48,791 nt of DNA, taken from Microcaldota archaeon (GTDB lineage Archaea; Micrarchaeota; Micrarchaeia; Micrarchaeales; CABMGC01). The translations under genes were made by a program, and so were the position numbers. The stretch lies in contig JAJZND010000019.1 in the NCBI GenBank assembly GCA_021848025.1, positions 1 through 48,791 of the forward strand. Direction: 5' to 3'. Within the stretch, counting starts at the first letter, position 1, and each line of letters opens with the position of its first letter. The notes under the pieces were generated by a model. It had not been told where the DNA came from, ran no database searches, and saw nothing but the letters and a program-made list of their open reading frames with translations. Positions 111-47,654 of the stretch are shown here, in pieces.

Positions 111-3100
111 TGCGGTTATCGAGGTGAGGAGAGGTGGCGTTACCGTTATTTTCACATTGGATGTTGCGACTTCGCCTGAGATGTCGTTCACTGTGAGAGT
201 GAGGACGTAGTTGCCTGCATTCGAGAAAGCGGCATTGTTTCCGTTGAAGGTTACACTTTTACTTGGCACTGAAGTGTACGTGTAGGTGTTGCTGCCGGTG
301 CCGCCTGAAGTTGTGTTAGTGAGGTGCACTGACTGGCCTGCGCTTATATAGGTTCTGTTTGCTGTTAACTGGGTAGTTAAGGCAGGTGTGACTTCAACTG
401 TAAGGGTTGAAGGCGCATTTGCGGTCTCGCCTGTCTTGTCAACAACATTGAGGTTAACTACGTAATTGCCCGCATTCGCAAATGTAATTGAGCCGTTGAC
501 ATTTGGAGTGACTACATTGCCATTTACATAGTAAGTCCAGACATTGCTGCCTGTGCCACCTATTGTTGTATTCTTGAAGAAGACTGACTGGCCGGCTGAG
601 ATAGGAACTATTGAATTGAATGCGAAGTTGGTTATCTGCAGTTTAGGAGTTACTTGAATATGTATCAATTTCTCATCTCCCGTATGGGCGACTTCCCCGG
701 TTATGTCATTTACTGTCAGAGACACGATATAATTTCCGACAGTATTGAAGACTGCATTGTTGCCTGTCCAGACTATTCCAGTATTAGGAGTTACTGCATA
801 CGTGTAGGTGTTGCCGCCGGTGCCGCCTGTTGTCATATTGGAAAATGTTATTGACTGGCCTGCGCTTATTAGCGTCCTGTTTGCATTGAATTTGATTACC
901 TCAAGAAATGGGGTAACTGTTATCGGCACATTTGATGTTGCGACTTCGCCTGAGATGTCTTTCACTGTAAGCGTGAGGACGTAGTTGCCTGAATTTGCGA
1001 AGAGCGCGTTGTTGCCTGTGAAGGTTACGCCGTTGCTTTGGTTTGAAGTGTAGGTGTAGGTGTTGCCTCCGGTGCCGCCTGTGGTTGAATTGGTGAGGTA
1101 GACTGACTGGTCTGCGCTTATTAGCGTCCTGTTTGCATTGAGTGAGGTGAGAAGAGGCGGAGTTACCTGAATAACGTTTGTGGCTGTGGCAGTCTCACCT
1201 GAATAGTCAGTGACAGTGAGTGTTACAAGATAATTTCCTGCGGTATTGAACTTTATTGAATTTCCATTGATTACATAATCGGTTCCTGAAATGCCGTTGT
1301 TTACCGTGTAGGTGTAGACGTTGCTGCCTGTGCCGCCTGAAGTCGCGACTGTGTATGTCACGCCCTGGTCAGCGGAGATGTAGCTCCTGTTTGCGTTGAA
1401 GGTAGTTATTTCAAGCGAATTCGTTACGTCAACTTCTACTGAGTTGGTTGCGACCTCGCCTGAGATGTCGTTCACTGTGAGAGTGAGGACGTAGTTGCCT
1501 GCATTCGAGAAAGCGGCATTGTTTCCGTTGAAGGTTACACTTTTACTTGGCACTGAAGTGTACGTGTAGGTGTTGCTGCCGGTGCCGCCTGAAGTTGTGT
1601 TAGTGAGGTGCACTGACTGGCCTGCGCTTATTAGCGTCCTGTTTGCTGTTAACTGAGTAGTTAACTGAGGTGTGACGTCTACATTAACCGAATTGGATGA
1701 CACTTCACCTGATCTATCGACAACTTTTAAGGTTACCACATAATTGCCAGGAGTGGTGAATTTAGCGATGTTGCCATTGAATGTGAAGCCTGTTGTTGGG
1801 CTTACTGAGTATGAATATGTGTTCTTGCCGGTGCCGCCTGAAGTAATATTCCAGAAAACTACAGGCTGATCCGCACTAATATAGGTTCTGTTTGCAATCA
1901 GGGCCAGCGAAAGAGGCTGTGCCACATTTACTGTTATATTGCCCGAAGTTGCTGTTTCGCCGGTAAGATCCTTTACATTAAGCGCCACATTGTTCGTGTT
2001 GCATTCCCCGGTCACTATGTCTCCTGAGCTGCCGCTGCCTGCATTTGTAAAGCTCTGGCCACAGTAATTGTATGTCCAGGACCATGCATCGCCGTCATTG
2101 GCAAAATTAAATGTGGAATCAGCTCTGCTTCCGAAGAGGAACGCAAGGTAATCGAATTGACTAGAATCGCCTGTCTGGCCATTGCCATATGTGCCCTTAA
2201 GTACATCTGAGACTGTGCCTCCGTAGTTGTACGTGCTCTGCAAATTAGCCAGCGCTAATGAATTAAATGTGCCCTGGAACGTACCCACATACCCTCCTTT
2301 AAATGTGCCTGTTGCATTTACAGTCTCAGGGACAGGGACTCCGTTATAAGGGCTTATCGCACCATTGAAGGTTGTAAATGTGCCATTGTAGAATACTATT
2401 GCATAGAAGGTACCGTTTGTTTCCTGCCAGACCATTATATGCTTTAGATAATTGTCGAGCGCCCAGTAACCCTTGAAACCGCTATCCTCATCGTTGGTTA
2501 CATAATAGCTTACATTTAGGACACGCGTCCATGAACTTGGCACATTGGCTAGAGCAGAAAGCATGAATGTTGGATATGGGCCTGAAGAGGTGGTTGCTGA
2601 ATTTCCAGGGAATGTTATAGAGCCGTTTACATTAGGCGAGACTGGAACATTGTTTACAAGATATGTGTAGACATTGCTGCCTGTGCCGCCTGTTACTGTG
2701 TTGCTGAAAAAGACAGATTGACCATTGCTTATGAATGAGGTAGAAGTGTTTGTAAATGATGTGATAGTAAGAGGCTGCGTAACATCGACTGTTACAGAAT
2801 TGGAAGCAGTCTCTCCAGTAATGTCATTCACTGTAAGCGTAACTACGTAGTTGCCTGGCGTATTGAAGACTGCGTTGTTGCCTGTGAATGTGAATCCAGT
2901 GTTAGGAGTTACTGAATATGTATATACATTTGAACCTGTTCCGTATTGCGTGATATTGATGAATGCCACGCCCTGACCTGGAGAGATCAACGTCCTGTTT
3001 GCTGTGAGCGAGGTTGTAAGTGCAGGCGTAACCTGGATAACATTTGTGGCTGTTGCGGTCTCACCTGAATAGTCAGTGACAGTGAGTGTTACAAGATAAT

Positions 3101-6100
3101 TTCCTGCGGTATTGAACTTTATTGAATTTCCATTGATTACATAATCGGTTCCTGAAGTGCCGTTGTTTACCGTGTAGGTGTAAACGTTGCTGCCCGTTCC
3201 ACCTGAAGTCGCGACTGTGTATGTCACGCCCTGGTCAGCGGAGATGTAGCTTCTGTTTGCATTGAAGGTGGTTATTTCAAGAGGTGGAGTTACCTGCACC
3301 GCGAGCGTATTAGATGCTGTTTCGCCGGTTGTATCTACAACGTTTATAGTAACAACATAGTTTCCTTGGGTATTGAATTGAAGGACATTTCCATTTAATA
3401 CATAGTCAGTGCCTGAAATGCCGTTGTTTACCTTGTAGGTGTAGATTACGTTCCCCGTGCCTCCAGTAACTGCAGGCTCAAGAAGGATCTTCTGGTTCGC
3501 ATCTGCGCTTATATAGGTTCTGTTTGCGTTGAGGGTTACTTCAAGAGGCGGAGTTACTGTTATTGGCACATTTGATGTTGCGACTTCGCCTGAAATGTCT
3601 TTCACTGTGAGAGTGAGGACATAGTTGCCTGAATTTGAGAAGACTGCGTTGTTGCCTGTGAAGGTTACGCCTGAATTAGGAGAAACGGAGTAAGAATATT
3701 GGTCTGAACCTGTGCCGCCTGTTGTTGTGTTTGTTAGATATACTCCTTGGCCTGCGGAGATGTAGGTTCTGTTTGCTGTGAGGGAGGTTGTAAGTTCAGC
3801 TGTAAGATTCCAAAGCTCAACTGAAGAATATGCTGCACCAGTAGGCGATTCGCTGTCTGTCACAAGGAGCTTGAAGTTGTACTGTCCAAGCGGGCTTGAA
3901 GAGTTTGTCGCGAATTCGCATGAAACGGTATTGCCAGTTACCGGGCCAGTTGCACCAGGGCCGCAATTAGCTATATTGAAATTGTTGCTGCCAGGCAGAG
4001 CAACAAGCCATTCATAGGTATAAGGAGGCATTCCGCCAGTCACGCCAAGATTTTCATCAGTTACTACCTGATCCCTGCTGAAGGTAGGTATGCCTTTGTT
4101 TTCGCGTCCAGGGTATAGTATCTTAGTGCTGTTTACGTTTAAAGTCTCGTTATCGTATACTAGCGCACTTGACTGGTTCGTTTCTCCAGTCAGGTCTGTT
4201 ACATGCAATGTCACATTGTATAATGTAGGATTATAGTCAGGAATTGAGACATGGGTAAATTGGAAGACATTGTTTCCTTCATTAGTATAACTTCCGCCAT
4301 CGACCGAATTTACAGTGTAGTAGTAAGTTACATCTCCTGTGCCTCCTGTGATTGTATTTGAGAAGTCCACAGTGCTGGTTTCGATTATCCATGATTTGCT
4401 TGGCGTAAGAGTTACTTCAAGAGGAGGCGTAACACTTATTGCTACTGAACTGGAAGCATATTCGCCGCTTAAGTCATTTGCGCTGACTACTGCAAGGTAA
4501 TTGCCAGGTGTGTTGAACTGCCATTCATTTGCGCCAGTCTTGACTATGCTTACATTGGTGAAGCCGCCGTATACTGCAGGGAAGGATGAAAGTGTGTCGG
4601 AAAATGTTGGGAAAGCCATGCTGAATGCATTGGAAGGTATCGGACATCCTGAAGGGTAGCATTGGTTTTCCAGTATGTATACATTGACACCTACGAGCCA
4701 TGCATTTGCCGCGCTGTCATAGACTGCTTCAGGATACGCAGCAAGCACCGCGCTTGAGTCTGACTGTGGTTCATGCACGAGATCCCACTGATAGAGCTTT
4801 CCGTGTAGGAAAGAACTCTCACTTGGAAGTCCATTAAAGGTAAGGGAGCCTGACCAGTATTCATATTGCGTAAATGGTGTTCCAGTGACACTTGAAGGGA
4901 GTGTCAAATTGTCGCTGAATAAGGTGTAATTGTATCCTTTCTGCTTGATAAAGAGCAATTGGTTCCCGAGCACATTTGAAGGGTATCCGTATATAGGGGT
5001 AAGCAGATTGCCGTTTGAGAGCACTTCTATAGGTCCCAGATCGTTTGAGCCTCCCAGGTTTGCATATCCATTCGGATAAGTAGCGCAGATTCCTGTTCCT
5101 GGCACAGGCTGATTATAGCAGCCTTCAGGTGTCGCTGACCATGTGCCATAAGGAGCCGCAGGCGCAAAGAATGCATTTACTGAAGTCCAAAGGAAATCGT
5201 TATCAAATTCGGTAAGTTGGAATGTGCTTGTTACTGAAGGATTAACAGGTATGTTTGAAGGCGGTAAATTCAATAGGTAGAATGAGTTGTTGTACTGATA
5301 TGAGCCGGTACCCTGCGATGCAGAATCTGTAAGTATCACATTCTGGCCTGCGCTTATTAGCGTTCTGTTCGCTGTTATGCTTGTCTGAAGAGGTTGATTC
5401 ACAGTTATTGACACAGTGTTTGCTGCTGTTTCGAGCGTAAGATCGTTAGCGTTTACCGTTATTGTGTATATGCCGGGATTTGCAAAGGTAAAGACATTTG
5501 CGTTGTCAGGATTCTCAGTTATACCTTCTCCTGAATAGAATGAGTATGTATACATGTAGTTTCCTGTTCCCTGCGAAGGAATTGCATTAAGCGTAACTGA
5601 CTGGCCTGCGCTTATTAGCGTTCTGTTCGCTGTAAGGCTAACTTCAAGCGGTTTGGTTACATATAATGTTATTGAGTTTGTGCCGTCTGGAACGCCGTTT
5701 GCCTCTGCTGAAACGCTTACAGTATAGGTTCCTGATTCGCTTGTTGAGCTGACTTCGCACGTGTCAGCTGATGAATAAGAGGATGTGCTGCAACTGCTGC
5801 CCACAACACTCAGCCCGGATGGAATGGTCCATTCATATGTAGGTGAAGTGCCTGTTGTGGCTGTGGCGGTTAGAACAATGTTCTGGTTAGTTGGAGTATA
5901 AGGCTCAGCGGAGACTGTTGTTCTGTTTGCGGTGAGCTCTACTAATGGCGTTGATGGTGAATAGGTAGTAGGTGTGATCAGCTGCATGTTTGAAGTGGAA
6001 AGGAGGCTTGAGAATGCGCCCACTATTCCTGTAGTAAGCGCAGGGAATTGCACGCTCTGCGAGATAGGCTTTGCACTTGAGGATGCAAAGCTTACGCTAA

Positions 6101-6218
6101 GGGAGAGAAAAACAGAGAGTAGGAGCGAGAATAGTAAGAGTGCGTATGCTGTGTTCCGCTTGCCGCCGCTTGATGGCGTATCGCTATTTGAAACCTCTGA
6201 CTTCCGATCATCCTTCAT
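1..6218 (-). CDS. Giant Ig-like-repeat surface protein (adhesin or S-layer-like), C-terminus beyond the window
   Basis: The minus-strand frame starting at the ATG at 6218 is open at every place I translated: the first ~190 codons, around 2400, and the left edge. It does not end within the window, which explains its absence from the ORF track; more than 2,070 residues are visible. A charged N-terminus (MKDDRKSEVS) is followed by a hydrophobic segment (YALLLFSLLLSVFLSLSVSFA), read as a signal peptide or anchor. After that come about 17 Ig-like units of roughly 84 residues, with recurring pieces such as NRTLISAGQSV, SGGTGSNTYTY and GNYVLTLTVNDISGE. Two longer non-repeat inserts lie near 2000-2600 and 4560-5200; the second is Trp/Tyr-rich. 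NxT/NxS sites are abundant, suggesting heavy N-glycosylation. The role as an exported surface or contact protein is inferred from architecture; no ligand can be named. Confidence 0.85.
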   Translation of the reverse strand, partial: MKDDRKSEVSNSDTPSSGGKRNTAYALLLFSLLLSVFLSLSVSFASSSAKPISQSVQFPALTTGIVGAFSSLLSTSNMQLITPTTYSPSTPLVELTANRTTVSAEPYTPTNQNIVLTATATTGTSPTYEWTIPSGLSVVGSSCSTSSYSSADTCEVSSTSESGTYTVSVSAEANGVPDGTNSITLYVTKPLEVSLTANRTLISAGQSVTLNAIPSQGTGNYMYTYSFYSGEGITENPDNANVFTFANPGIYTITVNANDLTLETAANTVSITVNQPLQTSITANRTLISAGQNVILTDSASQGTGSYQYNNSFYLLNLPPSNIPVNPSVTSTFQLTEFDNDFLWTSVNAFFAPAAPYGTWSATPEGCYNQPVPGTGICATYPNGYANLGGSNDLGPIEVLSNGNLLTPIYGYPSNVLGNQLLFIKQKGYNYTLFSDNLTLPSSVTGTPFTQYEYWSGSLTFNGLPSESSFLHGKLYQWDLVHEPQSDSSAVLAAYPEAVYDSAANAWLVGVNVYILENQCYPSGCPIPSNAFSMAFPTFSDTLSSFPAVYGGFTNVSIVKTGANEWQFNTPGNYLAVVSANDLSGEYASSSVAISVTPPLEVTLTPSKSWIIETSTVDFSNTITGGTGDVTYYYTVNSVDGGSYTNEGNNVFQFTHVSIPDYNPTLYNVTLHVTDLTGETNQSSALVYDNETLNVNSTKILYPGRENKGIPTFSRDQVVTDENLGVTGGMPPYTYEWLVALPGSNNFNIANCGPGATGPVTGNTVSCEFATNSSSPLGQYNFKLLVTDSESPTGAAYSSVELWNLTAELTTSLTANRTYISAGQGVYLTNTTTGGTGSDQYSYSVSPNSGVTFTGNNAVFSNSGNYVLTLTVKDISGEVATSNVPITVTPPLEVTLNANRTYISADANQKILLEPAVTGGTGNVIYTYKVNNGISGTDYVLNGNVLQFNTQGNYVVTINVVDTTGETASNTLAVQVTPPLEITTFNANRSYISADQGVTYTVATSGGTGSNVYTYTVNNGTSGTDYVINGNSIKFNTAGNYLVTLTVTDYSGETATATNVIQVTPALTTSLTANRTLISPGQGVAFINITQYGTGSNVYTYSVTPNTGFTFTGNNAVFNTPGNYVVTLTVNDITGETASNSVTVDVTQPLTITSFTNTSTSFISNGQSVFFSNTVTGGTGSNVYTYLVNNVPVSPNVNGSITFPGNSATTSSGPYPTFMLSALANVPSSWTRVLNVSYYVTNDEDSGFKGYWALDNYLKHIMVWQETNGTFYAIVFYNGTFTTFNGAISPYNGVPVPETVNATGTFKGGYVGTFQGTFNSLALANLQSTYNYGGTVSDVLKGTYGNGQTGDSSQFDYLAFLFGSRADSTFNFANDGDAWSWTYNYCGQSFTNAGSGSSGDIVTGECNTNNVALNVKDLTGETATSGNITVNVAQPLSLALIANRTYISADQPVVFWNITSGGTGKNTYSYSVSPTTGFTFNGNIAKFTTPGNYVVTLKVVDRSGEVSSNSVNVDVTPQLTTQLTANRTLISAGQSVHLTNTTSGGTGSNTYTYTSVPSKSVTFNGNNAAFSNAGNYVLTLTVNDISGEVATNSVEVDVTNSLEITTFNANRSYISADQGVTYTVATSGGTGSNVYTYTVNNGISGTDYVINGNSIKFNTAGNYLVTLTVTDYSGETATATNVIQVTPPLLTSLNANRTLISADQSVYLTNSTTGGTGGNTYTYTSNQSNGVTFTGNNALFANSGNYVLTLTVKDISGEVATSNVPITVTPFLEVIKFNANRTLISAGQSITFSNMTTGGTGGNTYTYAVTPNTGIVWTGNNAVFNTVGNYIVSLTVNDITGEVAHTGDEKLIHIQVTPKLQITNFAFNSIVPISAGQSVFFKNTTIGGTGSNVWTYYVNGNVVTPNVNGSITFANAGNYVVNLNVVDKTGETANAPSTLTVEVTPALTTQLTANRTYISAGQSVHLTNTTSGGTGSNTYTYTSVPSKSVTFNGNNAAFSNAGNYVLTLTVNDISGEVATSNVKITVTPPLLTSITANRTLISAGQNVILTDSASQGTGSYQYNNSFYLLNLP
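172..347. repeat. 176-bp perfect repeat, copy A
   Basis: Compared base by base with 1456-1631: no mismatch. The offset of 1284 bp keeps the reading frame. It covers most of one Ig-like unit. Confidence 0.93.
1195..1415. repeat. 221-bp near-identical repeat, copy A
   Basis: Aligns without gaps to 3061-3281 with about eight mismatches. The offset of 1866 bp is in frame. It encodes one Ig-like unit of the giant adhesin. Confidence 0.9.
1456..1631. repeat. 176-bp perfect repeat, copy B
   Basis: Identical to 172-347. The flanks differ at once on both sides, which points to recent unit duplication or gene conversion inside the gene. Confidence 0.93.
3061..3281. repeat. 221-bp near-identical repeat, copy B
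   Basis: Partner of 1195-1415. The few differences show this pair is older than the perfect 176-bp and 110-bp pairs, so unit exchange has happened more than once. Confidence 0.9.
5260..5369. repeat. 110-bp perfect repeat, internal copy
   Basis: Exact match to 1-110. It diverges at the next base (c here, t at 111). It encodes the end of one Ig-like unit and the start of the next. Confidence 0.93.
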
Positions 6219-6621
6219 GCAATCTCTCTCTAAAACTTAAATACAAATTTAATGCACAGGAATTGCTACTCTTTACTTTTTCTTATTATGAATTACCACA
6301 GTGCTGCTTCCGGAGCTATTGCCTCCACAATATCCCGACAGGTTATTTGCCCATCAAGCCCTCCGAATGGTATGAATGAATTTGAACTGGTATATAAATC
6401 TTGCGATTGGTTTTGCAGAATTTGCTGCAAATCTTTAAAAGGTTTTTGTATAACGCTATTATAATTTTATGTCCTGGCAAGTTTAGGCAAAACAAATTCT
6501 TGTTTCTTGGCTCCAGACTTCGCTCTTGAATATGCGCTTCAGAGCACTGCAATTGCAGGGACTCGTTTTATAATACATTGCATTTATTACTTATCTTGGA
6601 CTTTACTGGCAGTGGATATGC
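6219..6621. promoter_or_regulatory. 403-bp divergent intergenic region
   Basis: This lies between the giant adhesin (minus) and the DUF2079 gene (plus). AT-rich boxes suitable as TATA elements are seen near 6232-6252 (minus direction), 6392-6399 (tatataaat) and 6567-6575 (ttataatac, plus direction, about 50 bases before the start at 6622). Short ORFs in the track here overlap one another in several frames and have no family features; I see no convincing gene. Confidence 0.45.
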
Positions 6622-8157
6622 ATGCCAAACAGCGTGTATAAGTTTTATGACAGGTATTTCTATGCGGCGTTGCTTGTTACAATGCTCAGCTTTGCATACT
6701 GGGTAGCTTTCTCATCGAACGCATACTCCACCTTCCACGAATATGACGACCTTGGCATCTTCGCAACTAACATGTGGTTTTATCTTCACTACCCAGCCTA
6801 TGCACACGGCCTGCAGCTTCTTGTCTTTGGAAACCATATCTCGCCTCTCCAGCTTCTTGTGCTTCCTGTTTTTTACCTCTTCCAGAGCGCAATGACACTT
6901 CTTGTAGTACAGGATGCGGTGCTTGCGCTTTCGGCTTTCGCGGTCTTTCTTGCAGCCAGAAGCCTGCTTGGAAGACCCAGGCTGGCCTTTTTCTTCTTCC
7001 TCGCCTTTATAATCAATCCGGGCTTATACGGAATGGTCATCTTTGACTACCATCTTGAATCATTTATAGTGCTTTTCTACGTCCTGGCTTTTTACTTCTA
7101 CATGAAGAACAGAGCAGGACCGTTCCTCCTCTGTCTTATACTGCTTCTTTCCACCATCGAAGAGGCGCCTTTCCTTGGGGCCACGCTTGGAATAAGCTTA
7201 TTGCTCTTTGATGATTTCTATACGGAAAATTGGGAGATAAGGAAAAAACGGCTGCGCATGGCAATGGCAGCAGTTATTATTTCAGTGGTCTTTTATGTGC
7301 TTTACTTAGGGATAACTAGTATGCTGATAAGGGAGTACAGCGCAGGGGCATATCCATCGCTGCCGCCATACCTCGAGCTTGCAAGCAGGCTCCCTCAGCT
7401 TGCAGGCTCGCTTGCCTCTGCAAACGTCTCAAATGCATTTAATACTGCCTTTTCACATTACCCTACTTATGTGGCATATGCACTTGCTGCCGGCATCTTC
7501 TTCTTTGGAATAGCTGTGCTCTTCGACCCTCTTACTTCCATTATTCTTATCTCACCCTGGCTGGTATACGGCCTTTTTGAAAACGTCGGATTCTTCTTTG
7601 TCTTCCAGCAGTACTTCGGCTTTGTTCTTGGCGGCAGCGTAGTCGGCTCGCTCTTTGGAATGCTCATGCTTCTTGAAGGCAAGGGCTTCCTTGCACACGC
7701 TATGAAAAGAAGGGATGGTAAAAACTATGCCAGCACAGGCATGGCGTATATACTCATCTCTGCCCTTGCAGTTAACTGTCTGCTTCTTCTCTTTTATCCT
7801 ACTTTCGTTCTCTCAGACAATGTAAACAATTTAAGCCAGGACTTCCTCTTCAATGTTAATGCTTCGCAGAAAGCATATTACAGCCAGATTTACTCGCTGC
7901 TCAATTACGTGCCGAAGAATGCCTCCCTTGCCACAGAGTACTTCATACTGCCTCACGTCTTCAACAGAAGGTACATCGAGGACATAGGCTATACTGAAAC
8001 AGAATGGTATTTCAAGCCGCAGTATGTTCTGGTTGACTTCAACCTCAACGTGAGCCTGAACGCATACACAGGAGAGAATAAGACCCTCGCATACCTCCGG
8101 GCTAACAATTATTCCCTGTACATGGAGAACGGCACTGCGAGGCTTTACAGGAAATAA
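6622..8157 (+). CDS. DUF2079-family polytopic membrane protein
   Basis: The 511-residue protein has about ten hydrophobic segments. The N-terminal third carries the DUF2079 signature: an acidic loop reading EYDDLGIFATNMW, then FGNHISPLQLLVLPVFYLF, a DYHLESFIV motif and an STIEEAPFL motif, matching the FDLGIFDQ, GDHFSP, FHPE and KED positions of the family. Family members resemble GT-C type membrane glycosyltransferases and are common in archaea; substrate and reaction are not established. The C-terminal ~110 residues (after VLSDNVNNL) form a soluble domain with several NxS/T sites, probably outside the cell. The ATG at 6622 has only a weak ribosome-binding sequence. It is transcribed away from the giant adhesin, so a role in glycosylating surface proteins is possible but inferred. 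Confidence 0.8.
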   Translation: MPNSVYKFYDRYFYAALLVTMLSFAYWVAFSSNAYSTFHEYDDLGIFATNMWFYLHYPAYAHGLQLLVFGNHISPLQLLVLPVFYLFQSAMTLLVVQDAVLALSAFAVFLAARSLLGRPRLAFFFFLAFIINPGLYGMVIFDYHLESFIVLFYVLAFYFYMKNRAGPFLLCLILLLSTIEEAPFLGATLGISLLLFDDFYTENWEIRKKRLRMAMAAVIISVVFYVLYLGITSMLIREYSAGAYPSLPPYLELASRLPQLAGSLASANVSNAFNTAFSHYPTYVAYALAAGIFFFGIAVLFDPLTSIILISPWLVYGLFENVGFFFVFQQYFGFVLGGSVVGSLFGMLMLLEGKGFLAHAMKRRDGKNYASTGMAYILISALAVNCLLLLFYPTFVLSDNVNNLSQDFLFNVNASQKAYYSQIYSLLNYVPKNASLATEYFILPHVFNRRYIEDIGYTETEWYFKPQYVLVDFNLNVSLNAYTGENKTLAYLRANNYSLYMENGTARLYRK

Positions 8158-43881: not shown

Positions 43882-44005
43882 AATCGGTCAAAGAGAATAT
43901 GCATGCAACTCTTTTTAAAGGATAGGTTTAGTGCTGTATGAATGGCCGGACAGCTATAATTTAATATGCGGGATTTATAAGCTGCAGCCTGTTTTGCAGA
44001 AAATG

Positions 44006-44017
44006 TTTATATATAAG
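44006..44017 (+). promoter_or_regulatory. Candidate TATA box for the 44184-46133 gene pair
   Basis: The box tttatatataag fits the archaeal consensus and predicts a start near 44036, giving a ~150-base leader before 44184. The leader holds a 33-codon frame (44048-44149). Confidence 0.45.
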
Positions 44018-44047: not shown

Positions 44048-44149
44048 ATGGAGCAGATGGAATCAATTCCGGCACAGATGCAGATTGCAAGCCTAGCTTC
44101 GCTGTCTTACAGATCCTATTTCTATTTCTTCTGGTACCTGGCAGCATAA
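44048..44149 (+). CDS. Possible 33-residue leader peptide or small hydrophobic protein
   Basis: The frame MEQMESIPAQMQIASLASLS ends in an aromatic, hydrophobic stretch (YRSYFYFFWYLAA). It follows a TATA box by ~30 bases, with gaagg very close to the ATG. It may be chance; no family recognised. The remainder of the 302-bp gap 43882-44183 holds nothing else I can support. Confidence 0.2.
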   Translation: MEQMESIPAQMQIASLASLSYRSYFYFFWYLAA

Positions 44150-44183
44150 GGCCACAGTAAGAAAAACAATCATTGTGGTCTTC

Positions 44184-45485
44184 ATGCCTATAATAATTGC
44201 CCCAACCGAAGGTATACGAGTTTCTGATAATGCCAAGTGCATTTCACGAGCAGAGATAGTTGAGAGAAGCCTTGCTACGATTGCACGGAACAGGGAGATA
44301 GAGCCGAGATTTCCAAAGGCAAGGGAAGTATTCGCAGGCATAGTTATGGCAAGCTCATTCTCGCATGCAAATCTTAGCCCGTGGTCCAGTCAGCTAGTGG
44401 GAAATGTTATATTAAGGGAGATAGCTGCAGAGCTGGGAATAAGAGATGGCAGCATCTTGAATCTCATGCACGACAATGGGAAGCCGCAGTGCGATCCGGC
44501 TCCAGGAGGCCATAGAATAGACCTGGGCAATTTTCCGCGCATCTTCGATGGCGGGAAGCCCTACTCGAGTCCAAGGCAAAGCTTCAAGGAAATCTCCTTT
44601 GGCGATATAGAAGCTGTTACTGCTGCTTCGTTTAGTGGAGAGTCAAGAGATATAGTACGCGAAAGGCTATCTGATATAATCAGAATACTGGTCAGATACC
44701 AGAAATCACTGGACATACGAATAGGCTCAACCTCGGCAAAAGAAATAGCAAACCTGCCGCAGGCGATTCTGCAGTCAAGGCAGCAGGTCTTCGAAATGCT
44801 TGGAATCGAAAATGTAAGGGAGACATCTGTTACAAGCATAGCTACAAGTCTTGTTCCGGATGTGCTTGAGATACTTGAACTCGAATACGGCAAACCTTTC
44901 TATAAAATGGAGTTGAGCGAATCGTACATTGATTCTACAGGCGCAAGAGTGCGAGGTTTCAAGGATGCCGGCTATCTCAAAGGCATAGACATGAATGGCA
45001 TACGCCGACCTGTTGAAATAGATTTTGCGAGAAGGAACGGGACCGAAGTGCCCATCTTTACCTTCTCCGGCGAGTCAACTACAGGAAGCAAGAAGAATGC
45101 GGTCACAGTTTCGGACACCTTCAGGGCAGAGGGACGTGAAATCTATGATGCCATGCGAGCAGGGAGAGTGGTTCCAACAGTGCCTACCATGATGCTTGCT
45201 GCTACAACCGCGGTGCAGATACCGCACATGGGAGCATTCAACTGGAGAGATTATGCTCCTGCAGAGTTAAGGCGCCAGGCGAGGTTCTTGGGCATGAGCA
45301 ATGAAGAGGCTGAGGCGCTTTACCTTTGCACAGAAGGTAACGACTCGTTCGTAGTGAAAAGGGATGGTCAGGAAATCAAGGGCACCTTCTCAGGCTACGT
45401 GACGCTTGGTAAGGAAGGCATAAGGGAATCTATTTCAAAGGATGTGCGCATAGAGATAGAATGGGGTAAACTGCTCAGGTGTTAG
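44184..45485 (+). CDS. Unrecognised protein paired with a VanX-type dipeptidase
   Basis: The 433-residue protein (ATG at 44184; the track uses a GTG nine bases earlier) has no signal peptide or membrane helix. Notable blocks are SSFSHANLSPWSSQLVGNVI, MHDNGKPQCDPAPGGHRIDL, DSTGARVRGFKDAGYLKGID, RRPVEIDFARRNGTEVPIF and IPHMGAFNWRDYAPAELRRQ. The mixed alpha/beta pattern with conserved-looking His, Asp and Arg suggests an enzyme, but I do not recognise the family. Only three bases separate its stop from the dipeptidase start, so the two are very likely co-translated and functionally linked. Confidence 0.7.
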   Translation: MPIIIAPTEGIRVSDNAKCISRAEIVERSLATIARNREIEPRFPKAREVFAGIVMASSFSHANLSPWSSQLVGNVILREIAAELGIRDGSILNLMHDNGKPQCDPAPGGHRIDLGNFPRIFDGGKPYSSPRQSFKEISFGDIEAVTAASFSGESRDIVRERLSDIIRILVRYQKSLDIRIGSTSAKEIANLPQAILQSRQQVFEMLGIENVRETSVTSIATSLVPDVLEILELEYGKPFYKMELSESYIDSTGARVRGFKDAGYLKGIDMNGIRRPVEIDFARRNGTEVPIFTFSGESTTGSKKNAVTVSDTFRAEGREIYDAMRAGRVVPTVPTMMLAATTAVQIPHMGAFNWRDYAPAELRRQARFLGMSNEEAEALYLCTEGNDSFVVKRDGQEIKGTFSGYVTLGKEGIRESISKDVRIEIEWGKLLRC

Positions 45486-45488
45486 TAA

Positions 45489-46133
45489 ATGAGACAATAT
45501 AGTATAGACTATGAAATAGCTCATTCGGTAAAGACTGTGGAATGCGGCGAAAGCCTGGTTGACTTGGGCATGCACTCCAGCGAAATAGTCATAGAAATAG
45601 AGGAAACTTCAAGGAAAATGCAAAGATTGCGTGAAGGATCATGCATGATGAGGAAGTCTATCGTGCCAAGATTGCTAAAGGCAGAGGCGCTTCTGCCTGC
45701 TGGCTTCCATCTCAAGATTATAGACTCGTATAGGCCATTAAGCGCGCAAAGAAAAATCTGGAAGCAATTGTTCCGCGATATAAGGAAAAGGCCGGGAATC
45801 TCGGAGATGGAGGCGGAGCTTGAGACAGATAAATGGGTTGCAAATCCCGACAAGATAATACCGCAGCACTGCACAGGAGGTGCGCTGGACTTGACCATAG
45901 TTGACAGACACTTGGAAGAGCTCGACATGGGTTCTCCGGTAAATACTGCAGGCAGAAAGTCAGTTACAAATGCCAAGCTCACGCAGAAGGAAAGGGCAAA
46001 TAGGAATCTGCTGATAAAAGTGATGTCCAGAGCGGGTTTTGCGAATTACAAAAGGGAATGGTGGCACTGGTCGTACGGTGAATGGGGATGGGCCTATGCA
46101 AACAGGAAGAATGCGATTTACGGTCCGATATGA
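45489..46133 (+). CDS. vanX: D-alanyl-D-alanine dipeptidase (VanX/DdpX family, peptidase M15D)
   Basis: The 214-residue protein has the M15D catalytic set: the IDSYRP motif (Arg contacts the substrate), zinc-binding QHCTGGALDLTI (His and Asp) and EWWHWSYGEWGWAY (catalytic Glu and third zinc His). VanX cuts the D-Ala-D-Ala dipeptide in bacteria. No signal peptide is evident, so it acts in the cytoplasm. Archaea lack D-Ala-D-Ala peptidoglycan, so the true substrate may be a scavenged or different D-containing dipeptide. It probably came by transfer from bacteria. It follows the unknown gene by three bases. Confidence 0.88.
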   Translation: MRQYSIDYEIAHSVKTVECGESLVDLGMHSSEIVIEIEETSRKMQRLREGSCMMRKSIVPRLLKAEALLPAGFHLKIIDSYRPLSAQRKIWKQLFRDIRKRPGISEMEAELETDKWVANPDKIIPQHCTGGALDLTIVDRHLEELDMGSPVNTAGRKSVTNAKLTQKERANRNLLIKVMSRAGFANYKREWWHWSYGEWGWAYANRKNAIYGPI

Positions 46134-46185: not shown

Positions 46186-46656
46186 TCACGTAACGGCTAT
46201 AGAAGACGGAATCTGGTTCGCATCTATTGTTATATTGCAGTAAGCGCAGACCAGCTTTATAGGATCCTTTGAGATAACCCTGAATTTTGTATGTGCTTCA
46301 GGGTCATTGTTGGTTATGCACTTGCTATTCTGGCACCTTACAACTTTCTCGATCACTTCTGGAAGGACCACCTTCTTCTTTTCGGTAACTTTGTAAGATT
46401 TTATTATATTTACAGTAGCATCCGGGGAGATGAGGGCAACGTAGTAAAGCTCTTCCGGAGTCAGCCATCTATTATCTATCTTTATTATGTCTTTGGAACC
46501 TGTCCTATTGCTGTCCGTATTTATCAGAATCGCCAGTTTTGACTCACTAGGTTTTTTCAGGGACAGTAATGAATATATGAGCGTGGCCTTGCCTGCGGCT
46601 ATATGATCTATGACGGTCCCTGATTTTATTCTGTTTACAAGAAGGTCCTTCTCCAT
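46186..46656 (-). CDS. pyrI: Aspartate carbamoyltransferase regulatory chain
   Basis: The 156-residue protein starts LVNRIKSGTVIDHIAAGKA, the allosteric nucleotide-binding domain, with KIDNRWLTPEELYYVALISP. The zinc domain has four cysteines (CQNSKC and CAYC). PyrI chains join PyrB trimers and transmit ATP/CTP control of the first committed pyrimidine step. The start is one base beyond the pyrB stop, so the genes are translationally coupled. Confidence 0.93.
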   Translation of the reverse strand: MEKDLLVNRIKSGTVIDHIAAGKATLIYSLLSLKKPSESKLAILINTDSNRTGSKDIIKIDNRWLTPEELYYVALISPDATVNIIKSYKVTEKKKVVLPEVIEKVVRCQNSKCITNNDPEAHTKFRVISKDPIKLVCAYCNITIDANQIPSSIAVT

Positions 46657-46657
46657 T

Positions 46658-47557
46658 CTATTGCCTCTCTGAAAGCAGGTTATACATTATCGCCTGCCGG
46701 ATAGGCACGCCATTGGCTGCCTGTACAAAGTATTTTGCCTTGTCTGTGCCATCTATGGCCCTGTCCAGTTCATCGACTCTGGGGAGCGGGTCCAGTATGA
46801 TCGAGTCATCAGGCATTCTTTCAGCCACACGAATGTCTATATAGTAACTTCCCTTTACGCTGTTGTACTCCATCTCATCCTGGAATCTCTCCTTCTGCAG
46901 CCTGTTCACATACAGCACATCTACATCGCCAGGCACTCCGGCCAGGCTATCCGACCATTCGCACTCGTATTTGAGCCTTGATGTTACCTGCTCAAGCGGC
47001 TTTAGCTGGGGCGGAGAGATTATATGAACTGCTTTAGGCCGGAAATTGTTCAGCATGTAAAGCAGGCTGTTTGTGGTCCTCGAATGCCTCAGATCTGCAA
47101 CTATCGCATACGTAAGGTTATCTGCCTTTCCGAAATGCTCTTTGATAGTGTACATATCTATCAGCGCCTGCGTAGGATGCTCATTCTGACCATCTCCCGC
47201 GTTTATTATTGCCTTGCCGGATACCTCTGATGCGAACCTTGCCGAGCCATCAAACCTGCTCCTTATTACTATAAGATCTGCGTATCCGGAAAGCATGCGC
47301 ACCGTATCTGCAAAGGTCTCTCCTTTTGCCATTGATGAATCTTTGTCTGAACGCATGCTTGTTACACTAAGGCCAAGTTTCATTGCTGCCATCTCGAAGC
47401 TTGAGAATGTGCGGGTGCTTGGCTCGAAAAAAGCCAGTGCAACAGACGAGGACCTATCCAAAGGCTTAACAGCGCCTCTTTTGAATTTATCAGAAAGAGA
47501 GAATAGTTTATCTATCCTGGCTCTGTCCAGCTCTAAAGCAGATATCAATCCAGCCAC
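46658..47557 (-). CDS. pyrB: Aspartate carbamoyltransferase catalytic chain
   Basis: The protein contains FFEPSTRTFSSFEMAAMKLG (carbamoyl-phosphate site), KGETFADTVRMLSGYADLIVIR, INAGDGQNEHPTQALIDMYTI and the C-terminal DPLPRVDELDRAIDGTDKAKYFVQAANG. It joins carbamoyl phosphate and aspartate. The track uses a GTG at 47602, but a TATA box (ttttaaat on the minus strand, near 47589) predicts transcription from about 47563. The GTG at 47557 (299 residues, VAGLISALELDRARI) then fits both promoter and family length. First gene of pyrBI. Confidence 0.92.
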   Translation of the reverse strand: MAGLISALELDRARIDKLFSLSDKFKRGAVKPLDRSSSVALAFFEPSTRTFSSFEMAAMKLGLSVTSMRSDKDSSMAKGETFADTVRMLSGYADLIVIRSRFDGSARFASEVSGKAIINAGDGQNEHPTQALIDMYTIKEHFGKADNLTYAIVADLRHSRTTNSLLYMLNNFRPKAVHIISPPQLKPLEQVTSRLKYECEWSDSLAGVPGDVDVLYVNRLQKERFQDEMEYNSVKGSYYIDIRVAERMPDDSIILDPLPRVDELDRAIDGTDKAKYFVQAANGVPIRQAIMYNLLSERQ

Positions 47558-47654
47558 GATGATCCATTTATCTTGATATACGGCATTTAAAAGGCGTTTC
47601 ACAAAAATAGTTTACCGTATTACAGCGCCTCGGCAAGCGATTTGACAAGCAGGC

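Follow-up and report, generated by a model that had tools for sequence, protein, structure and literature searches.

An orphan protein paired with an M15 peptidase in Micrarchaeota: a candidate leader-controlled module for D-residue peptides

The locus described here raises the question of why a wall-less archaeon should carry a VanX-like dipeptidase directly behind a protein of no recognised family. The window (the whole stretch analysed, 48,791 nt; contig JAJZND010000019.1 of assembly GCA_021848025.1, genome G000 below) had been read once from its letters alone, and this first-pass annotation proposed that the two genes form an undescribed two-gene pathway, possibly for D-amino-acid dipeptides. 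Both open reading frames were found where it had placed them, on the forward strand and 3 nt (TAA) apart: P0001, an orphan protein of 433 aa (44184..45485, ATG start; delimited from the ORF and a family alignment), and P0002, a predicted M15 (VanX/DdpX-like) zinc D,D-peptidase of 214 aa (45489..46133, ATG start; assigned by Pfam and by alignment with structure 1r44). A Shine-Dalgarno-like AGGTG (forward strand, 45477..45481) was identified by inspection at the end of P0001, ahead of P0002. A second in-frame start for P0001 lies upstream (GTG at 44175); ATG44184 was preferred because the hairpin geometry described below and the alignment both favour it. In a comparison with a second genome of the same genus (G001), dN/dS was 0.057/0.458 for P0001 and 0.074/0.456 for P0002; the genes are intact in both congeners and evolve under purifying selection. 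Close relatives are from Micrarchaeota.

P0002 matched Pfam Peptidase_M15 (PF01427) above the curated threshold (E 1.5e-19, 71 bits, cut-off 27) and could be aligned to solved VanX (1r44) across SYRP, H-x6-D and EWWH. The residues tested against PF01427 were the zinc ligands H127, D134 and H193, the catalytic E190 and the substrate residue R82, and all five were invariant in 21 aligned M15 proteins; the zinc and catalytic residues are complete, as the earlier description of a dipeptidase with every catalytic motif had it. The scores fell far under the NCBIfam equivalog cut-offs for VanX (49.9 vs 320 bits) and DdpX (84.7 vs 176 bits), so that "M15, VanX-like" is a safer name than "VanX". P0002 shares with VanX and DdpX the Pfam family, the zinc ligands, the catalytic arginine and glutamate and the lack of an apparent signal peptide (none was apparent in P0001 either). 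It differs from them in an extra N-terminal region, held in common with unassigned M15 proteins of Streptomyces, Allochromatium and Burkholderia, and in its locus, which showed neither Ddl nor VanHA nor a dipeptide ABC transporter alongside. The bacterial proteins nearest to it are likewise M15 peptidases without an assignment, and not VanX or DdpX. This would be expected of an ordinary peptidase operon, in which the M15 enzyme has shifted its activity to L-dipeptides or to another housekeeping role, P0001 is accessory or regulatory and any D-amino-acid theme is coincidental; the substrate-side residues of the family (SYRP arginine, EWWH) are, however, fully kept.

P0001, searched alone or as a family, had no match in Pfam, NCBIfam, PHROGs or the PDB sequences, which agrees with the first reading of it as a protein of no recognised family. 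A profile search of the phylum recovered the family from 5 of 301 genomes, which belong to three genera within a single Micrarchaeota family. It has 8 members, four of them paralogues in G037; identity to the window protein was 89% within the genus and about 26-35% outside it. No relatives were found in viral contigs and phage records, nor in plasmids apart from one chance-level match. A single-sequence AlphaFold prediction reached a pLDDT of only 32, and the 8-sequence alignment was used as input instead (pLDDT 83, pTM 0.84). Foldseek with this model returned no match at E ≤ 0.001 in PDB or BFVD; the profile and structure searches that had been suggested for the protein were thus run and yielded neither a family nor a confident fold match.

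The first-ranked structure for the P0001 model, in PDB as in the viral library BFVD, was methionyl-tRNA synthetase, a weak match (E 0.012/0.023, TM 0.23-0.28) spanning about 410-430 columns. It is in this weak top match that P0001 resembles the class I aminoacyl-tRNA synthetase fold (MetRS, MshC, cyclodipeptide synthase). P0001 is unlike these enzymes in that the HIGH and KMSKS signatures were absent on inspection from all 8 family members, TM stayed below 0.3, and profile similarity was not above decoys: hhalign comparisons with synthetase sets (Met, Ile, Val, Cys, Trp and others) did no better than the decoys, and a one-way hmmsearch --max rank test gave no support. A relationship to class I synthetases was not supported by these sequence tests. 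A TrpRS gene adjoins one of the P0001 paralogues of G037, and a TrpRS gene is also found near the M15 gene in G009; both cases were judged to be chance because each genome has many synthetase genes.

The pair was then looked for in other genomes. The same-genus genome G001 conserves both genes and their flanks. In G212 the P0001-family gene overlaps the M15 gene by 14 nt, and in G037 the two families are linked twice: on contig C14 the genes are divergent and about 110 nt apart, and on contig C19 (L014, 4432-12594) they are 3.4 kb apart, in an operon-like run of P0001, GNAT, M20 and M20 genes with M15 convergent at its end. Upstream of that run lie genes for DAP decarboxylase and for one more M20 peptidase, as well as another reading frame. 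P0001-family genes also occur without an M15 neighbour, twice in G037 and once in G044 (a genome 83% complete), where an S66 LD-carboxypeptidase adjoins the gene. The linkage is real, since the two families adjoin in three genera, in adjacent, overlapping and divergent arrangements, while only 5/301 genomes carry P0001 at all; in this respect the first-pass annotation held up. M15 peptidases are mainly bacterial, and the window genome is a 31-contig draft, so the pair might have been an assembly artefact or a bacterial contaminant. We regard this as highly improbable: the pair and its flanks recur in an independent genome of the genus, other genomes hold related pairs, and the C14 contig of G037 has the tetranucleotide profile of the rest of its Micrarchaeota genome.

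The company kept by P0001 bears on its possible chemistry. It is found repeatedly near amide hydrolases, be they of family M15, M20 or S66, as a substrate maker would be, and it may be a ligase or transferase whose product is a D-amino-acid dipeptide or amide, which the M15 enzyme would recycle or limit. The M15 relatives on plasmids had no P0001-like neighbour wherever their surroundings were annotated, and one of them, on a Rhodococcus plasmid (L170, 89-3510), follows a Ddl-like protein (as read), a PLP enzyme and a C39 peptidase in one operon, which would suit such a cycle of synthesis and breakdown. The weak top fold match could point the same way, for the class I synthetase fold also gave rise to amide-bond makers. 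The missing HIGH and KMSKS signatures, the synthetase profiles no better than decoys and the low TM values count against it, as does the lack of any ATP-grasp or adenylation family match for P0001, and we consider a synthetic role for P0001 doubtful, if worth keeping in mind.

M15 relatives were recovered from 10 of 295 genomes in the phylum search. The archaeal M15 sequences form a single group in the tree (82/82), with the exception of the tenth, from G033, which groups with Mesorhizobium and, judging from this placement, is a separate acquisition. One archaeal subclade (95/92) holds G000, G001, G212, one G037 copy and G049, and with them most of the P0001-partnered members. Another (98/95) consists of G009, G081 and G232, which are without P0001; here the M15 gene follows a different orphan gene, family B, found only in these three genomes and overlapping the M15 gene in G009. 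Homology between P0001 and family B was not supported by profile comparison or by a one-way rank test. The interpretation in the first-pass annotation is upheld in part: the orphan partner and the linkage speak for it, whereas against a two-gene pathway P0001 also stands away from M15 (G037, G044) and its slot is held by the unrelated-looking family B in other genera. The arrangement looks like that of a small module for handling unusual peptides, and the pathway as such is a hypothesis. In G232 a free-standing archaeal ThrRS editing domain (PF08915; L040, 6968-7399) lies between the family B and M15 genes.

Comparison of family B with the N-formylglutamate amidohydrolase (FGase) profile placed the two best local matches on its PHSG and D-x-N motifs, collinear and in the correct order, although not significantly (P 0.08 and 0.16). 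This would be consistent with P0001 and family B both being FGase-like or M14-like hydrolases acting on N-acyl or peptide amides. The Pfam FGase model (PF05013) matched neither P0001 nor family B, no FGase was among the top PDB matches of the P0001 model, and kinship between the two families was undetectable. Membership of the FGase family, for which suggestive motifs were seen in family B only, was not supported, and the broader hydrolase proposal seems to us decidedly unlikely.

Several M15 loci have D-specific enzymes beside them. In G009 an Asp/Glu racemase gene overlaps the M15 gene, giving a family B-M15-racemase operon, and in G033 (L041, 4683-8757) a histidine racemase-like protein, a GNAT protein, the divergent M15 and a histidine ammonia-lyase-like gene (as read) stand in a row, possibly a D-histidine cluster. 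Taken with the S66, DAP decarboxylase and M20 genes, these neighbours plausibly point to peptides containing D-amino acids. Ddl was not found in the ten genomes, in which Dala_Dala_lig_C matched only carB-like frames (1054-1062 aa) and purK/T-like frames (380-398 aa). On the scale of whole genomes, racemase genes were not enriched (1 of 10 M15 carriers vs 2 of 16 other genomes) and the M15 carriers did not have DAP decarboxylases more often than the others. The window genome moreover has a DAP route of its own (asd-, dapA-, dapB- and dapL-like genes, with lysA), so that DAP genes need not mean scavenging. Its operon contains no D-amino-acid gene besides M15, and the analysis identified neither a substrate nor a transporter or uptake system for the proposed module. 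The suggested processing of D-amino-acid dipeptides thus gains plausibility from the neighbours and from the lack of a Ddl, and loses some from the racemase counts, which would also fit the ordinary peptidase operon outlined above. With D-specific enzymes next to M15 at several loci, such an operon is nevertheless unlikely in our judgement, and D-peptide handling, though it rests on local context, is the best available reading.

The region upstream of P0001 was aligned with that of G001. A TATA-box-like element of archaeal type, TTTATATATAAG (44003..44014, forward strand; sequence inspection), has its core kept in G001 as TTTATATATGAG. It precedes a putative leader ORF (uORF) on the same strand, of 33 codons and a TAA stop, MEQMESIPAQMQIASLASLSYRSYFYFFWYLAA (44048..44149), that ends SYFYFFWYLAA* in the window and SYFYFFWYLTA* in G001. 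Conservation of the uORF is limited to this aromatic 3' end, the 5' half diverging like non-coding DNA. The 3' end lies in a conserved leader block of 86 nt (44113..44198, forward strand; alignment columns 232-317), in which G000 and G001 differ at 3 of 86 sites, compared with 39 of 186 in the stretch immediately before it (Fisher p 1e-4); the block matched no Rfam family. Within it a hairpin (44140..44188, forward strand) with arms 44148-44158/44172-44182 (11 bp) and an outer helix 44140-44143/44185-44188 pairs the leader stop region with the start region of P0001: the stop codon opens the 5' arm, the 3' arm abuts ATG44184 and the outer helix includes part of the start codon. The single stem change between the two genomes turns an A-U pair into G-U. 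The hairpins of the window (-18.6 kcal/mol, z -1.8; 13/200 shuffles) and of G001 (-16.9 kcal/mol, z -1.85; 10/200 shuffles) are only modestly more stable than shuffled sequences.

A stop-to-start hairpin scan was run on about 800 ORFs of ≥ 120 aa (650 kb), and the loci of the window, G001 and G009 were its top three. The window case had been found before the scan, so what can fairly be counted as evidence is that the highest-ranking other locus, in G009, also precedes an M15 partner gene. There, ahead of the family B-M15-racemase operon, the hairpin is more pronounced (-25.6 kcal/mol, z -3.7; 0/200 shuffles), an aromatic uORF ends IIWTYLA*, so that the ending W(T)YLA recurs, its TAA lies inside the 5' arm, and the long stem includes the start codon. 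In a control with reversed sequence a stem as long as these (12 bp) appeared once, and stem length alone is for this reason not proof. No leader hairpin was shown by the scan for the other family members. A uORF beside a start-hiding hairpin is accordingly conserved in two congeneric genomes and has an analogue in the G009 operon.

This arrangement resembles bacterial leader-peptide attenuators of the erm type and mgtA-type uORFs: a short ORF contains a series of special codons, and its stop codon lies beside a hairpin in which the start region of the main gene is hidden. It differs in that its host is an archaeon and that no second, alternative hairpin is demonstrated. To our knowledge, aromatic leader-peptide attenuation is known only from bacteria. 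Archaeal uORFs have been reported by Ribo-seq (PMC11456600), and a text search of one literature collection found no archaeal leader-peptide attenuator. The architecture, standing ahead of two unrelated-looking partner genes, appears to be new here. By this geometry expression would be set at translation start: the hairpin would hide the P0001 start region and open once a ribosome reaches the stop codon of the leader ORF, so that leader translation releases translation of P0001. How the leader responds is something we infer.

Our preferred, still tentative explanation, to which we give somewhat less than an even chance, is that of an inducible, leader-controlled cytoplasmic module that degrades foreign D-residue peptides in a wall-less archaeon. 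It is drawn from the linkage, the invariant M15 active site, the M15 clades, the neighbours that act on D-centres or amides, the lack of a Ddl, and the leader. The P0001-P0002 pair would be one transcription and translation unit; the M15 enzyme would cleave a short peptide ending in a D-residue, and P0001 would act on the same compound, most likely as a substrate-specific enzyme before or beside the peptidase. We infer the substrate, the direction of the reaction and the chemistry of P0001. Since no D-Ala-D-Ala ligase was found, the substrate would most likely come from nearby bacteria, as wall fragments or a D-peptide antibiotic. Archaeal wall enzymes have been described as exported peptidoglycan hydrolases that kill bacteria (PMC12352652, where M15 is not mentioned); P0001 and P0002, with no apparent signal, are a different matter.

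A wider claim, that Micrarchaeota possess a D-peptide module joining M15 with a new enzyme family of no assigned fold (P0001 or its functional replacement, family B), at least two of the operons being under aromatic leader-peptide attenuators, is one we hold to be possible but rather improbable as a whole. If true, wall-less archaea would handle chemistry ascribed to bacterial walls, a new protein family would be added to D-peptide chemistry, and translation control by a leader peptide would become testable in archaea. One peptidase clade with two orphan partners and the same leader plan before each lends itself to direct experiments, and in this plan, common to two unrelated-looking partner genes, we see the chief new point of interest.

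Two further observations concern the surroundings of these loci. Contig C14 of G037 (L013) carries three genes of the bacterial MEP isoprenoid route (IspG, IspH and Dxr), together with a bacterial-type lysS (2744-4983 and 6012-7274), an unexpected set for an archaeon. In the window, PyrI and PyrB (46186-47602) lie 3' of the pair on the opposite strand, and they flank the pair in G001 too.
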